Part shown: positions 6,558 through 56,239 of the stretch, piece by piece | How the letters are laid out: each line of letters opens with the position of its first letter | Numbering within the stretch: the first letter of the stretch is position 1 | Origin: Planctomycetes bacterium GWF2_41_51 | GTDB taxonomy: Bacteria > Planctomycetota > Phycisphaerae > Sedimentisphaerales > UBA12454 | Reading direction: 5' to 3' | Length of the DNA stretch: 60,098 nucleotides | NCBI GenBank assembly: GCA_001825665.1 | Contig: MHXZ01000015.1 | Location: forward strand, 1 to 60,098 | Notes under the pieces: generated by a model | What the model was told of the DNA's origin: nothing | The model's database searches: none | The model's input: the letters and a program-made list of their open reading frames with translations, nothing else | Position numbers and translations under genes: made by a program

Positions 6558-7043
6558 ATGGCAAAAGCACATGTATATAAACGAGATCATATAAATACGG
6601 ATGAAATTATTCCGGCAAGGTATCTTAATACAGATAATATGGCTGAATTGGCGGCGCATTGTATGGAAGACCTTGATACGAATTTTGTGAAAAAATGCAA
6701 GCCGGGTGACTGCATAGTCGCAGGTGACGATTTCGGCTGTGGTTCGAGCAGGGAGCACGCGGTGTGGGCATTGCAGGGCGCTAAGGTCGGAGCGGTTATC
6801 GCAAATAGTTTTGCGCGGATTTTTTACCGTAACTGCATCAATTGCGGCTTTTATCCTATTGAACTCGAAGACGCAGCGGGAAAAATTAACGACGGCGATG
6901 AAATTGAAGTCGATTACAAAAAAGGCGTGATTACTAACATAACACGGGAAATAGAATTAACGTTTAAGCCGCTGCCCGATTTCGCGATTGAAATAATCAA
7001 TGACGGCGGATTACTGGAACATATAAAGAAAAGCAGCCACTAA
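6558..7043 (+). CDS. leuD: 3-isopropylmalate dehydratase, small subunit
   Basis: Swivelling small subunit that completes the LeuC active site. The 161 residues are the short, archaeal-like form, matching the short LeuC. Recognised by INTDEIIPARYLNT near residue 12, the core GDDFGCGSSREHAVWAL near 55-71 and NSFARIFYRNCINCG near 80-94. AAAGGAG lies eight bases before the ATG. The TAA stop is contained in a CCACTAAGACACAAAGGCACGAAG-type dispersed repeat, so the last codons of the gene are part of, or abut, a repeat element. Operon position between leuC and leuB. Confidence 0.93.
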   Translation: MAKAHVYKRDHINTDEIIPARYLNTDNMAELAAHCMEDLDTNFVKKCKPGDCIVAGDDFGCGSSREHAVWALQGAKVGAVIANSFARIFYRNCINCGFYPIELEDAAGKINDGDEIEVDYKKGVITNITREIELTFKPLPDFAIEIINDGGLLEHIKKSSH

Positions 7044-7062
7044 GACACAAAGGCACGAAGAA
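7036..7062. repeat. CACAAAGGCACGAAG-type dispersed repeat
   Basis: A short element across the leuD stop codon and the leuD-leuB spacer. Relatives with the same words occur at 45006-45030 (after dnaE) and at 36816-36846 (CACCGCGAAGGCACGAAG). Counts as a dispersed intergenic repeat family with at least three members in the window. Confidence 0.55.
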
Positions 7063-30061: not shown

Positions 30062-30472
30062 TTAATAAAAAATCCGACCGCCAGGGGGCTCATTCCGTTT
30101 TCCCGGGCGGGGTTTTTCCCTGTCGCCCCAGACTGTGGTCATTGCGAGGCCACAGCCGAAGCAATCTCAATTTCCCTGCCGCCCAAATCATTCATACTTA
30201 TCCGTTTTTGGGGGTTCGTAAAAACCTTTCATCCGAAATGCCCCAATGGTCAGACACGTCCCGAACTGTCCGATTTGCTTTCTTCTGTTTTTCTCCCCTT
30301 GAATTTCTCCAAAAATATAATATACTTTATCCACTTCAATTAATAACAGGAGTGTTATTTTTGTGAGCAATATTTATGTCAGATGCTCCAAAAACAAATA
30401 CATTAATAATGGGAAGAGAATCAGTGATAATTGTGTTGCAATTGTTATGTTAAATCTTAAGTGCCACAAAGT

Positions 30473-31516
30473 ATGAATAAGAATACAGTATATGTTATTG
30501 GTGCTGGCGCAAGCAAAGAGGCTAATTTGCCAACTGGACATGAGCTTAAGCGTGAAATCTCTGACCTTCTAGATATACGATTTGATGAAATGTGGCGACA
30601 AAAAAGCGGAGATTACCTAATAACAGAAGCTTTGTATGAACTTGTTAAACAACCTAATGGTCAAGGTGGCAATATTAAGCCTTATCTACAAGAGGCTTGG
30701 CATATACGAGACGCTCTGCCACAAGCTATTTCGATAGACAATTTTATTGATGCTCACCGAGATAATGACAAAATAACCATATGTGGGAAATTAGCGATAG
30801 TCATATCAATATTAAATGCTGAAAAAAGTAGCCTTCTTTATTTTCAAAGGTCTCAAAAAACTTCAACTATTTCTTTTAGCTACTTGGAAGCAACTTGGTA
30901 TTTGCCTTTTTTTCAAATGCTTACTGAGAACTGTGCAAAGGCCGATCTTAAGGACAGATTTCTATCAATAAGTCTTATTGTTTTTAATTATGATAGATGC
31001 ATTGAACATTTTATGTATCATGCTTTGCGAAACTACTATAGAGTTTCAAATGATGAAGCTGTTGAGTTAATAAGGTGTATAAATATCTATCACCCATATG
31101 GAAGCATCGGCTCTTTACCATGGCTTGCTAGCAATGACTCTATTGAATTTGGAGCAGATATAGATAAAGTCCAGCTACTACAGCTATCTAAAAAAATAAA
31201 AACATTTGCAGAAGGAACGGATCCCAATTCCAGCGACATAACAGCAATTAAAAAACTTATGGAGCAAGCAAAAAGATTAGTTTTTATAGGATTTGCCTTT
31301 CATAAGTTGAATATGCAACTTATAGCTCTAGATACGGAAAGCAAAGAGTTTCCTCTAAAATGCTATGCAACAACTTTCAATATCTCAAAAAGCGATGAAG
31401 AAATTATCCGTGACCAAATAAAGGAGCTATATAACAATGCTATAATTGATACGCGAATGGCTAATATTGAATGCGCAAAGTTCTTTTCTGAGTTTTGGAG
31501 AAGCTTGTCTTTTTAA
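30473..31516 (+). CDS. SIR2-like defence-type protein
   Basis: A 347-residue protein with the layout of standalone SIR2-like (defence-associated sirtuin) proteins: nucleotide-binding opening VYVIGAGASKEANLPTG (G10-A-G-A-S14), FNYD near residue 171-174 (the NYD motif), and HPYG with H207, where SIR2 proteins have the catalytic histidine; later KRLVFIGFAF resembles the IGYS strand. Family members typically cleave NAD+ during abortive infection. No partner gene (for example TIR or argonaute) lies beside it, so it may act alone. GTG 30461 would add four residues; ATG 30473 is preferred. Codons are more AT-rich than housekeeping neighbours, suggesting transfer. Confidence 0.75.
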   Translation: MNKNTVYVIGAGASKEANLPTGHELKREISDLLDIRFDEMWRQKSGDYLITEALYELVKQPNGQGGNIKPYLQEAWHIRDALPQAISIDNFIDAHRDNDKITICGKLAIVISILNAEKSSLLYFQRSQKTSTISFSYLEATWYLPFFQMLTENCAKADLKDRFLSISLIVFNYDRCIEHFMYHALRNYYRVSNDEAVELIRCINIYHPYGSIGSLPWLASNDSIEFGADIDKVQLLQLSKKIKTFAEGTDPNSSDITAIKKLMEQAKRLVFIGFAFHKLNMQLIALDTESKEFPLKCYATTFNISKSDEEIIRDQIKELYNNAIIDTRMANIECAKFFSEFWRSLSF

Positions 31517-36273: not shown

Positions 36274-36980
36274 TTTTTTATGATAAATTATCGGCAAAAA
36301 AGAATCAACGTAAATAAAGCACTTACAGCATTTTTCGTACAATAACCTGCGCAAGTTTTGCGCCTTGTTTTTGAACTGAAAACGGGGTTTCTTCCGCAAA
36401 AAAATGCCACTTCTTTTTGCTTCCATTTTCTACGTAAATAAAGGATTTACGGCTATTTTAAAAAATGCAACTCGTTAATTATCATAAAGTTATATAACGA
36501 ATTTGCAAAAAATGAAGAAATTTGCAAAAAAATCGAATGATTTTGAAGAAAAATTGAAAAAAATGGTATGAAAAGCATATCAAAATCTGGCATTATTTAT
36601 GGTGGTTCAGGGTCTTTAATAGACTACTTTTGACGCAATCTGACGATTTTTAACGCAGATCGCGCAGTGTAAATAAGAATTCTTTAATCATGTATTTAAA
36701 GAATTAGAAGATACGAAATAGTGGTTAATTAAAGTTTGTAAAAATGAACTTTGCTGGTAGAATCGAATATTCATCTGAAAGAATAGAAGAAACTTTAAGG
36801 AGGCAAAAAAACGATTCACCGCGAAGGCACGAAGCGACACGAAGGATCTATTTTGTTAATTTTAACCGCGATTGTTTACTGTAGTATTCGAATTATTATT
36901 GTTGGTTGAGTTTATATATAAGATAGCTATAATCACTCTAGCCGAAATTATGAAAAGGATTTTTGGGAAACTTAACGGCA
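36274..36980. other. AT-rich spacer ahead of the methylase operon
   Basis: About 700 bases with no convincing gene. Visible: a pair of ACGTAAATAAAG..TTTACG-type words (about 36308 and 36432), GAATTTGCAAAAAATGAAG and its repeat (36500-36530), a perfect AAGGAGG at 36797-36803 that is not followed by a start codon, a CACCGCGAAGGCACGAAG-type element (36816-36846), and a promoter-like pair at 36906-36933. Confidence 0.5.
36906..36933 (+). promoter_or_regulatory. Putative promoter of the methylase-nuclease operon
   Basis: TTGAGT (four of six matches) and a perfect TATAAT (36928-36933) with a 16-base spacer. Transcription would start near 36940, about 40 bases before the chosen start codon. Confidence 0.45.
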
Positions 36981-39854
36981 ATGAATGGTATTTTACTTCA
37001 AAGTCTAGATTTTATTCGTCAGGATGGCAAACCTATTGAAGGTCTAACTCCTGTTCCTAAAAATGATGATGTTCCATCGCTAAATCTTAGTATTGATGAA
37101 CAATCAGTATTATTTGAAGCTAAATTATTTAAGCATATAGATTTTGTTTTTTTTCGCCGTTTTTCGAACAAACGCTCATCGCAAGTAGCTGCGTATGTTG
37201 TAGATAATTCTGACAATAGACTTAACGAGGATGCACTTTCAGAACTTCATCACCAAGTCTGGCTTCAAGGAAGAACTCCATTACTCTATATAGCATGGCC
37301 AAGTCACATAGATATATTGGCCTGTGCCAGAGGGCCCGACTTTTGGAACAAAGATAAACAAAGGAGTAAATATAAACCTGCGTGTAAATTTGAATCTGAC
37401 TTACTAACTGTCGGAGAGATTTCTGATGAACTTAAACAGTTTTCTGCATATAGGCTTGCGGACGGTACTTTTTGGGATGACCCAAGAAATAATAAATTGG
37501 CTAACTATGACAAAGCAGCGCATAAATCATTGATTCAAGCAGTTGTTGATGCGGACAAAGACCTAGACGGGAAAAATAATCCTCTCTCAAGACGCTTGCT
37601 TTTATTGATGGTGTTAATCAAATATCTCGAAGACCGCAAGGTTTTTCCTAATGATGGTTGGTTTGGAAGATACCATAAGGGAGCAAAGAATTTCTTTGAA
37701 GTGCTTAAAGGGGGTGAACCCAATGAAGTGCAACTTTTGCTGGATTTCCTTGCTAGCAAATTTAACGGAGATATTTTTGACATTGCTCATCTGAGCAAAC
37801 AACTTACAAAGAAAACTCTGAATGCCTTTTCTGTTCTTATCGAAGCAAAAACAATCAATCGTCAGCTATATCTTTGGAATCAATACTCCTTTGAACATTT
37901 ACCTGTTGAAATCATAAGCCATCTTTATCAAAGATTTGTACAAGATGGACATGGGGCAGTTTATACTCCGCCATTTTTGGCGGCATTATTGCTTGATCAT
38001 GTAATGCCCTATAGGAAAATCACTGGTAAAGAACGCATTTTAGATCCCGCCTGTGGTTCAGGAGTTTTTCTTGTTGGCGCTTTTAGAAGATTAATTAATT
38101 TCTATAAAAGTAAAAACGATTGGGGCAATCTTGAGGTGGAGCAACTTAAAAGCATTCTTCGCCAGAGTATCTACGGGGTTGATCTGGATACCAGCGCAAT
38201 CGACTTAACGGCTTTCAGCTTATCTTTGGCTATTTGTGATGGTTTGAAACCAGAAGTTATCTGGAATAAACTTAAATTTGATCGATTACGAGATTCAAAC
38301 TTATTTGAATCCGATTTTTTTGAGTTACTGCTTAATTCTCAAAATGGTTCTTCCAATATTCTCAGGGATAAATTTGATATTATAATTGGAAATCCGCCGT
38401 TTGAATCTAAGCTGACAGATGCGGCAAAACAAATTGACATAATAGCACAGCAAGATAATCTGAATCGTGGAAAATGCCCTGACAACCAAATTGCTTATTT
38501 ATTTCTCGAACAGGCATTATCTGTTTTAAAACCGAAAAGCGGATGCATTTGTATAATTCAGCCTTCAGGGCTATTTTATAATAAAAATACTTATTCATTC
38601 CGTACTAATATATTTCAAAAATATTCTATAAAAACCATTCTTGATTTTACATCAATTAGGAATTTATACGAAGCCGATCCTAAAACAGTGGCTATGCTTG
38701 CTAATGCACAAAAACCAAGAATAGGGAATTCCATAGAGCACTGGACATTTAGACGAACGATAAGTGTAAAAGAAAAAATATGTTTTGAACTTGATCATTA
38801 TGACTACCATCACATTGTGCAGGAGAAAGCTGAAAATAATCCATATATTTGGCGTGCTAATCTTATGGGAGGAGGAAGGTTGGTTGATATTTCTCAAAGA
38901 CTTGGAAAAATACGAACACTAGCACAATATATTCAACAACAAAAATGGGATTGCGGGGAAGGTTATATAGTTGGTAAAAAAGGGAAACAACCGGCTCCAT
39001 TTTTGACCGGCAAACCATTCTTGCCAACAAGGGCATTTACTTTAGAAGGCATAGATGAAACAAAAATTAGTGTTGTAACAGAAAAAAAATTCTGTAACCC
39101 TAAAACAGAATCCCTGTTTAGCTCTCCTCTTATTTTAATAAAAGAAAATGAATCTTTACCGATTGCTTTTTGGAGTAAAGGTTGTTTGGCTTATAAGGAT
39201 AAAATTATAGGCATTCATGCCCCTAACATTACCAGAGAAATAGAAAAACTTAAGGGCCTTTATAAAACCTTGAGCCAACGACATAATTTTTATCGTTTTT
39301 ATTGTACATTAAATGGAACTCAATATTTAGTTGGTAAAGCGACAGCAATTCTGAAGCAAGATATTGATTCCTTTCCTTATCCTGAAAACAGTAAAGAAAT
39401 TGATTTGTCTTTCTGGGAGGAAGTTTTGCGTGAAGACGTTCTTGAGTACATGGCAAAATATGTCAGACTGGGACAAAATTCAAAATTACTGATAAAAGCA
39501 GCAGAAAAAAAAGACTTAAGCCGTTATTCAGATATGTTTATAAAAATGCTTGGCAGCATTTATAATAATTTGAAAGCAGGTGATCCGGTTTTTCTAAATA
39601 GTTTGATATGTCAGCCATTTTATTTTGGAGAACGTCCCGAATTTTCATGGCTCAATGATAATGCGGAAGAGGAACTAAAAAAAATTATTTACAACGAAAA
39701 TCATGCTCATCTCCGAACTGTCAGACTTTTGCGTTTTTATGGGAAAAATGTTTTATTAATTATTAAACCAGATCGACTTCGATATTGGATTCGTTCTACA
39801 GCAATTAAAGATGCGGATGAAACACTTAAAGACCTTTATCAGCAGGGATATTAG
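36981..39854 (+). CDS. Type IIG-like / N6-adenine DNA methyltransferase
   Basis: A 957-residue class I DNA methylase. N-terminal ~320 residues (including HIDFVFFRRF and VWLQGRTPLLYIAW) match no family I can name. The SAM site is DPACGSGVFLVGAFRRL (near residue 355), and catalytic motif IV is IIGNPPFES (near 467), the NPPF form of N6-adenine enzymes. A C-terminal ~400-residue region probably recognises DNA. It lacks a visible PD-(D/E)XK site, but the next gene, three bases away, provides one. The start is uncertain: TTG 36963 would add six residues. Base composition is more AT-rich than flanking housekeeping genes. Candidate restriction-modification or defence methylase. Confidence 0.82.
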   Translation: MNGILLQSLDFIRQDGKPIEGLTPVPKNDDVPSLNLSIDEQSVLFEAKLFKHIDFVFFRRFSNKRSSQVAAYVVDNSDNRLNEDALSELHHQVWLQGRTPLLYIAWPSHIDILACARGPDFWNKDKQRSKYKPACKFESDLLTVGEISDELKQFSAYRLADGTFWDDPRNNKLANYDKAAHKSLIQAVVDADKDLDGKNNPLSRRLLLLMVLIKYLEDRKVFPNDGWFGRYHKGAKNFFEVLKGGEPNEVQLLLDFLASKFNGDIFDIAHLSKQLTKKTLNAFSVLIEAKTINRQLYLWNQYSFEHLPVEIISHLYQRFVQDGHGAVYTPPFLAALLLDHVMPYRKITGKERILDPACGSGVFLVGAFRRLINFYKSKNDWGNLEVEQLKSILRQSIYGVDLDTSAIDLTAFSLSLAICDGLKPEVIWNKLKFDRLRDSNLFESDFFELLLNSQNGSSNILRDKFDIIIGNPPFESKLTDAAKQIDIIAQQDNLNRGKCPDNQIAYLFLEQALSVLKPKSGCICIIQPSGLFYNKNTYSFRTNIFQKYSIKTILDFTSIRNLYEADPKTVAMLANAQKPRIGNSIEHWTFRRTISVKEKICFELDHYDYHHIVQEKAENNPYIWRANLMGGGRLVDISQRLGKIRTLAQYIQQQKWDCGEGYIVGKKGKQPAPFLTGKPFLPTRAFTLEGIDETKISVVTEKKFCNPKTESLFSSPLILIKENESLPIAFWSKGCLAYKDKIIGIHAPNITREIEKLKGLYKTLSQRHNFYRFYCTLNGTQYLVGKATAILKQDIDSFPYPENSKEIDLSFWEEVLREDVLEYMAKYVRLGQNSKLLIKAAEKKDLSRYSDMFIKMLGSIYNNLKAGDPVFLNSLICQPFYFGERPEFSWLNDNAEEELKKIIYNENHAHLRTVRLLRFYGKNVLLIIKPDRLRYWIRSTAIKDADETLKDLYQQGY

Positions 39855-39857
39855 AAA

Positions 39858-40571
39858 ATGGGCGACGAATCCATTAATAAAATTTTTGCCGGGAAGATAA
39901 CATCTGGGGTTAAATTGCAGACATTTCAACTTGCCATAATAAATTTTGTTTTTGAACAATTGCCGAATTGGCGAGATGATCCCGACAGATCTGATGTAGA
40001 TTCAGAACCATTATTAAATCCCCAACTATCAAACTTTCTTGATTGTAAGGCACGTGATAATTCTCCTATGTTCCATTTTTGCCATGAGGAACCACAGGCA
40101 ATTAACCGAACTGTTGATATGGCTGCGAAAACAACCGAAAATATGCTCATTGAGGCAAAGCTTTATACTAAGTATGATCCGGTCCTTGTTTTTGAATGTA
40201 AACGACTTCCGGCCCCAGAGATTAAACGAGAAAAAGAATATGTTTCAGGGAAAGACCCGAATAAGATAAGTGGCGGAATACAACGATTTAAACTCGGGCA
40301 TCACGGCGCAAAACATGATTTGGCTGCGATGATCGGCTATGTGCAAGACGAATCCTTTAATCATTGGCAGGATAAAATTAATGAATGGATTTTGGAACTT
40401 GTAAAAAACCCAATAGGAGATAGTTGCAATTGGAATCCTACTGAAATTCTAAATATGGCGAAAGAGGATACATCAATAGGCGCTGTTCATTATCTCTCCA
40501 CCCATAAACGAAATGGAACTGTTGAAAGTGAAATTGAAATCCATCATCTTTGGGTTATGATGAGAAATTAA
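39858..40571 (+). CDS. PD-(D/E)XK-like restriction nuclease partner
   Basis: A 237-residue protein starting three bases after the methylase stop, so almost certainly co-transcribed. An acidic site NRTVDMA (D87) followed after about 25 residues by VLVFECKRL (E113-C-K115) is the PD-(D/E)XK nuclease signature; ISGGIQRFKLGHHG and AMIGYVQDESF follow, a pattern common to restriction-like nucleases. No DNA-binding domain is obvious outside this core. Inference: this is the cleavage subunit of a two-gene restriction-modification system with the upstream methylase, in which the methylase supplies site recognition. Confidence 0.68.
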   Translation: MGDESINKIFAGKITSGVKLQTFQLAIINFVFEQLPNWRDDPDRSDVDSEPLLNPQLSNFLDCKARDNSPMFHFCHEEPQAINRTVDMAAKTTENMLIEAKLYTKYDPVLVFECKRLPAPEIKREKEYVSGKDPNKISGGIQRFKLGHHGAKHDLAAMIGYVQDESFNHWQDKINEWILELVKNPIGDSCNWNPTEILNMAKEDTSIGAVHYLSTHKRNGTVESEIEIHHLWVMMRN

Positions 40572-55523: not shown

Positions 55524-55564
55524 TTTATTTGATTTTAGAAATTGCATTTATATTATATATCTTT

Positions 55565-56239
55565 ATGGCAAGACCATTAAGAATAACCCCGGCAGGATTT
55601 GCTTATCATGTTTTTAACAGAGCAAATGCTCGTGTTCAAATTTTTACTGCAAATAATGATTATCTTTGTTTCGAAAAAATTTTGATGCAAGCTGGTGAAA
55701 AATTCAATTTATGGCCTTGTACTTATTGCATAATGCCCAATCATTGGCATTTGGTACTTTGGCCGCAAGAAGAAGAGGTGCTTTCTAAATATGTCGGTTG
55801 GATTACTATGACCCATACTCAACGGTGGCATGCATTTCATAAAACAACTGGTTATGGTCATCTTTATCAAGGACGATTTAAATCTTTTCCTGTTCAAAAT
55901 GATTCACATTTTTTGACCCTGTGCAGATATGTCGAGCGCAATCCTGTCAATAGCGGCCTTGTCGAAAAGGCACAGGATTGGCGATGGTCAGGAATGTGGC
56001 ATCGCTGTAATAACGAAAATAGTGCAATATCGTTTTCTGAATGGCCGGTTGAAATTCCAAAGGATTGGTCTTCGTTAGTGAATCAGGTTTTTAACGAAAA
56101 GGAAATAGTTGAAATAAGAAGGTGTATTGAACGGAACAGACCATTTGGAGAAGTTGCCTGGATGAATCAAGCGGCGTCATCACTGGGTTTAAAATCTTCT
56201 AATGATAAACCAGGAAGACCCATGAAAAAAAGACTCTAA
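55565..56239 (+). CDS. REP-associated tyrosine transposase (RAYT, Y1/IS200-like)
   Basis: A 224-residue single-domain HUH tyrosine nuclease. HUH-type site in IMPNHWHLVLWP (H-W-H, residues 59-63) and the probable catalytic Tyr in RYVERNPVNSG near residue 120, with a following QDWRWSG and the GRP-rich end. RAYTs process REP-type palindromes in the chromosome and are not classic self-mobile IS200 elements. ATG 55565 starts the conserved MARPLRITPAGFAYHV; an upstream in-frame start was rejected. Three direct copies of a TAGCTCCTGACCCC repeat surround it (55496, 56288, 56729). Confidence 0.92.
   Translation: MARPLRITPAGFAYHVFNRANARVQIFTANNDYLCFEKILMQAGEKFNLWPCTYCIMPNHWHLVLWPQEEEVLSKYVGWITMTHTQRWHAFHKTTGYGHLYQGRFKSFPVQNDSHFLTLCRYVERNPVNSGLVEKAQDWRWSGMWHRCNNENSAISFSEWPVEIPKDWSSLVNQVFNEKEIVEIRRCIERNRPFGEVAWMNQAASSLGLKSSNDKPGRPMKKRL

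Follow-up and report, generated by a model that had tools for sequence, protein, structure and literature searches.

Type IIG restriction enzymes, among them MmeI, DrdV, BpuSI and Eco57I, have the N-terminus as the permanent place of their restriction domain (Loenen 2013, PMC3874165) and are defined by a single target-recognition domain (TRD) for the whole system (Blow 2016, PMC4752239). Split, type IIG-like systems have also been described: 76 are mentioned, and the named examples comprise AchA6III, with a fusion of a PLD-endonuclease to a translocase, OspHL35III, with a GIY-YIG nuclease and a translocase, and MexAMORF1192P, with an HNH nuclease and two translocases (Blow 2016, PMC4752239). 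In the type III systems (Mod/Res), the sole TRD resides in the modification subunit, and cleavage is the task of another subunit.

Here, we analyse a two-gene locus, encoding a methylase (M) and a nuclease by fold (R), in a 60,098-nucleotide stretch of planctomycete DNA (the window). With the type IIG enzymes, M shares a gamma-class m6A methyltransferase, a helical domain and a C-terminal TRD, and the single TRD apparently serves for both cutting and marking; in contrast to them, the domain occupying the N-terminal nuclease slot of M appears degenerate, and the nuclease is encoded by a separate gene. The placement of a methyltransferase–TRD protein and an endonuclease on separate adjacent genes is common to this locus and the split systems, but R, unlike the nucleases of the named examples, is a lone small PD-(D/E)XK protein with no translocase. 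The resemblance to type III is likewise partial: whereas Res is a large helicase-nuclease, R has 237 residues, one nuclease domain and no motor, and M is of the gamma class with Eco57I-type domains; moreover, no helicase is conserved nearby. Since the TRD is counted inside M, there is no separate HsdS as in type I, nor is there a motor HsdR or a third conserved gene. An earlier note, made from the letters of this DNA, had already set the arrangement apart from type I and from type IIG in a single chain, and the lack of a third conserved gene and the separate nuclease gene agree with this. Splitting of a type IIG-like system is already known in principle, but none of the named examples is motor-free with a single PD-(D/E)XK subunit. 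A literature search brought up no named system composed of two such genes; its scope did not extend to REBASE or to the supplementary table of Blow 2016, and a catalogue entry may exist.

Our preferred reading, to which we assign a probability of about 0.7, is that M and R together constitute a two-subunit, translocase-free restriction-modification enzyme, akin to a type IIG enzyme divided into two chains, in which R has no specificity of its own.

The methylase and its predicted nuclease partner

The two open reading frames proposed by the earlier note, a 957-residue methylase with DPACGSG and NPPF motifs and, three bases on, a 237-residue gene, were recovered together with the motifs. The frame of M extends from the ATG at 36981 to 39854, inclusive of the stop codon (39852–39854), and is already open from an upstream TTG at 36963; the ATG of R follows the stop codon after three bases. 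The features of the locus are as follows.

About 36400–36670, intergenic, just upstream of the operon: dispersed repeat, matched at some 40 other places in the genome with 70–88% identity
36981–39854, forward strand: M (957 residues), predicted gamma-class N6-adenine methyltransferase with integrated TRD (Pfam, AF2 model, VIA alignments)
36981–37355, forward strand: M residues 1–125, apparently degenerate domain (alpha-beta-beta-alpha-beta-beta), located as the nuclease domain is in type IIG enzymes (DSSP, 71-sequence alignment)
37512–37898, forward strand: M residues 178–306, helical N-terminal domain as in HsdM, PglX and MmeI (VIA alignments)
37899–38870, forward strand: M residues 307–630, SAM-binding catalytic domain (Pfam, conservation, VIA)
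38043–38063, forward strand: DPACGSG (M355–361), inside the catalytic domain
38391–38402, forward strand: NPPF (M471–474), inside the catalytic domain
38898–39470, forward strand: M residues ~640–830, predicted TRD, block-exchanged among relatives (identity drop between relatives)
39471–39851, forward strand: M residues 831–957, C-terminal domain (conserved ending)
39858–40571, forward strand: R (237 residues), PD-(D/E)XK nuclease by modelled fold (AF2 pLDDT 93.7, VIA, conservation)
40116–40118, forward strand: R residue D87
40194–40202, forward strand: R residues E113-C-K115
From residue 139 of R, forward strand: GGIQRFK motif

M matches the Pfam families Eco57I (4.6e-22) and N6_Mtase (3.7e-16), and its AlphaFold2 (AF2) model has a pLDDT of 89.5 and a pTM of 0.90. 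VIA aligns the model with CamA (Z 28.5), MmeI (Z 24.3) and BrxX (Z 24.1), and also with type I M subunits. CamA and the orphan gamma-class adenine methylases present the closest fold to the catalytic and TRD part, but the CamA-like core accounts only for M307–814 (the alignment runs from 307 to about 810–814), whereas the alignments with MmeI, BrxX and the type I M subunits start at about M178, where residues 178–180 pair with the first residue of BrxX and, in MmeI, with residue 159. CamA is not known to have a nuclease partner. Most positions of the DPACGSG and NPPF motifs are invariant across 71 homologues, and, as modelled, M is a gamma-class adenine methylase carrying its own TRD. The protein closes with a conserved ending (KPDRLRYWIRSTAIxDADET; mean identity 73% at 931–957), which the C-terminal ending of distant M proteins resembles; residues 831–957 could conceivably provide a docking site for R.

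The N-terminal region of ~320 residues, which the earlier note had set apart and could not place, can now be divided into the slot domain (~1–125), a linker and the helical domain (~178–306) known from HsdM, PglX/BrxX and MmeI. Residues 1–125 sit where MmeI has its nuclease. There is no conserved D or ExK within residues 1–150 among the 71 homologues, and the N-terminal regions of distant M proteins, where read, are likewise without a shared ExK. Because profile comparisons matched this domain neither to R nor to PDB sequences, its assignment as a degenerate PD-(D/E)XK domain is drawn from position and secondary structure only.

The model of R, built from an 80-row alignment, has a mean pLDDT of 93.7, and places D87 on the strand 84–92, and both E113 and K115 on the strand 108–117. 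As E113 and K115 are present in all 80 homologues, at least 90% of which also conserve D87, the motif is not a chance occurrence. The VIA matches (Z 4–7.3) include BglII and BamHI (both Z 7.3), OkrAI, McrC, SwaI, the nuclease domain of DrdV, NucC and EcoRV, with SgrAI and BpuSI also on the list; any single one of these, with Z below 8, is weak, and Foldseek gave no significant match for R. Nevertheless, the list consists almost uniformly of PD-(D/E)XK enzymes, the topology fits and the triad is conserved, on which grounds the model identifies R as a PD-(D/E)XK nuclease by fold, in keeping with the nuclease that the earlier note had read from D87 and E113-C-K115. Searches of Pfam, NCBIfam, PADLOC and PDB sequences, with R singly and as the 80-sequence set, assigned it to no family; the matches to HEC-05 (E 0.005) and PDC-S31 (E 0.0045) were weak, involved single members and were taken as chance.

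Pairing and distribution

That the two genes belong together, as the earlier note had supposed, is supported by their order: in 79 of the 82 fetched loci, which represent many phyla, M lies directly upstream of R on the same strand. The three exceptions comprise a contig edge (L077), a locus in which an IS3-like insertion adjoins an R gene without its N-terminus (L123) and one with a remnant of R (L073). A first search of genome contigs with the single R sequence gave no match, and neither M nor R was found in phage records at the limits used; a scan in which each species was represented by one genome, limited by the pattern used, yielded at least 140 R relatives, from phyla that include Planctomycetota, Nitrospirota, Pseudomonadota, Verrucomicrobiota, Acidobacteriota and Spirochaetota. 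Same-order relatives carry both M and R, and 20 plasmids, alphaproteobacterial where read, carry the pair in the same gene order at ~35% identity.

M and R are common to 92 of 95 loci, the next family, of ribbon-helix-helix type, being present in 15–18 and the one after that in 4; no third gene, translocase, helicase or specificity gene is conserved across the 95. The ribbon-helix-helix-like gene is small and immediately precedes M, but in proteobacterial loci only, being absent from the window; it was seen at 6860–7054 of locus L030 and in 18 loci from the genome scan, and possibly encodes a controller of the operon. In Limnoglobus roseus (L056), M has a frameshift and is broken by an insertion that contains a transposase-like open reading frame; the frame of R is open.

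Target specificity and the proposed mechanism

The earlier note had envisaged target recognition as divided between M and R; this part of its proposal probably does not hold, as exchanges of the TRD in M leave R without a corresponding change. Between the members of three pairs of loci (L084/L107, L085/L108 and L087/L103), a block has been exchanged at M ~640–830: the core is about 12–50% identical, and the flanks are mostly 80–100% identical. Comparing pairs of matched body identity, R is 65.0% identical where the TRD is swapped (n = 21, TRD 42%) and 64.9% where it is matched (n = 16, TRD 70%) at 75–80% body identity; the corresponding values are 71.5% (n = 5) and 72.1% (n = 7) at 80–85%, 80.9% (n = 3) and 73.1% (n = 5) at 85–90%, and 85.5% (n = 3, TRD 41%) and 88.4% (n = 3, TRD 92%) at 90–97%, although the pairs share ancestry and are phylogenetically non-independent, the closest bins hold 3–7 pairs each, and a differing TRD sequence need not entail a differing target site. 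At the scale of the family, the divergence of R tracks the TRD about as well as it tracks other parts of M (partial r 0.24). Since R shows no matching change where the TRD of M has been exchanged, these sequence comparisons suggest that the one TRD of M probably serves both marking and cutting, the simplest reading being that R takes its target from M.

Beyond what was computed (the fold, the catalytic residues, the pairing, the absence of other genes and the lack of TRD coupling), we infer complex formation, cleavage and its position, and a role in defence. M would bind a specific, probably asymmetric site via its single TRD and, as expected from its family, methylate an adenine there; R would dock on M and cut unmethylated DNA at or near the bound site, presumably having no independent specificity, as the TRD exchanges indirectly suggest. 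The nuclease-slot domain of M would be catalytically dead, and residues 1–125 might, more speculatively, act as a docking surface for R; the exploratory covariation described below points to the same residues, although it derives from ~25 effective sequences. No ATP-driven translocase would take part.

Of the alternatives, the one that survives best does not exclude this mechanism, but refines it: R could be a nicking enzyme, or two M–R complexes could have to meet, because each complex would combine a single working nuclease with a dead domain in the nuclease slot. A presumably active R beside the degenerate N-terminal domain of M accords with such a scheme, and in an exploratory analysis of M–R covariation, M1–125 was enriched among the top 200 pairs (44 observed versus 17 expected). 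However, these figures derive from ~25 effective sequences and are confounded by ancestry; we consider the number too small to trust and set the covariation aside as evidence. We hold this refinement only tentatively, as somewhat unlikely.

An orthodox type II system, in which R would be an independent sequence-specific endonuclease that recognizes the site of M by itself, appears improbable. It would accord with the location of M and R on separate genes, with a length of 237 residues, which suffices for such an enzyme, and with the nearest folds to R, namely BamHI, BglII and OkrAI, albeit weakly matched (Z up to 7.3); nevertheless, an independent enzyme would need to change when the TRD of M is exchanged, and R shows no such change; the near-obligate pairing of M and R across phyla and subfamilies also argues against it. 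Least probable is a BREX-like exclusion, in which M would mark self and R would act later, in replication, transcription or signalling, with no cut at the recognition site: the structure of M lies near that of BrxX/PglX (Z 24) and some type IIG-like systems are BREX-like (PMC4752239), but M scores 57 on the NCBIfam PglX model against a cut-off of 500, BrxC, PglZ and further BREX genes are not conserved neighbours at the M–R loci, and R keeps a full nuclease centre.

The pairing also reaches beyond what sequence searches reveal, to distant relatives of M (25–32% identity). A diverged R-like gene lies downstream of M in all 18 testable loci, one copy being frameshifted and another cut by a contig edge. 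These genes have a common signature, consisting of D, then E-C/A/G-K, Y(V/I), G-x-x-R-F/Y, G-M-(I/L)-G-(Y/F)-(V/I) and a C-terminal H, and profile comparison with hhalign links the subfamilies to R with probabilities of 93–99%. PADLOC labels the distant M relatives as type IIG, and several match over most of the model. None of the outcomes that the earlier note had named as speaking against its proposal was found: M itself does match the PADLOC type IIG models PDLC03603/PDLC03623, but the relatives that match such models along the greater part of their length are likewise accompanied by an R gene of their own. PADLOC may, with these two models, be calling half systems complete type IIG enzymes.

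There is, in our estimation, an even chance of the broader proposal that such loci represent a widespread, unnamed subtype, an obligate motor-free pair in which a methylase with a dead slot shares its sole TRD with a small, separate PD-(D/E)XK subunit, so that one TRD exchange changes both marking and cutting, and that many single-chain type IIG annotations are half systems. If true, a branch of the proteins catalogued as complete type IIG enzymes would consist of the methylase half alone, the nuclease having escaped notice since none of Pfam, NCBIfam and PADLOC has a model for the R family, and a motor-free PD-(D/E)XK form would join the few known split type IIG-like systems. The natural TRD exchanges would offer a set for the one-step engineering of cut-and-mark specificity, and it would become testable how a dead nuclease domain came to be retained once the active one had moved to a subunit of its own.

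Genomic surroundings of the pair

Two remarks of the earlier note concern the surroundings. The SIR2-like gene that it placed beside the pair exists as an open reading frame (30461–31516) with weak SIR2 similarity (PADLOC E 3e-5) and no Pfam match, yet it lies 5.4 kb away with several genes between. We rejected an association of SIR2 with M–R, as SIR2 genes, seen close to a few of the plasmid copies and, more loosely, in the window, are not general among the loci. In the plasmid loci L029, L032, L034 and L035, SIR2, TIR, AbiH and Shedu genes are found near the pair, in a defence-rich, variable neighbourhood.

The mobile-type repeats, in turn, were rightly noted: the intergenic DNA upstream of the pair is the dispersed repeat listed above, the matches to which fall mostly in the initial 270 bases of the query. 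It has the look of a non-coding repeat of mobile or REP type, and we regard it as context, outside the mechanism. Further along the window, at 55529–56239, there is a gene resembling a REP-associated tyrosine transposase (Y1_Tnp, Pfam E 1.9e-12; NCBIfam RAYT, 56.6 bits against a cut-off of 80), which may be related to the dispersed repeats.
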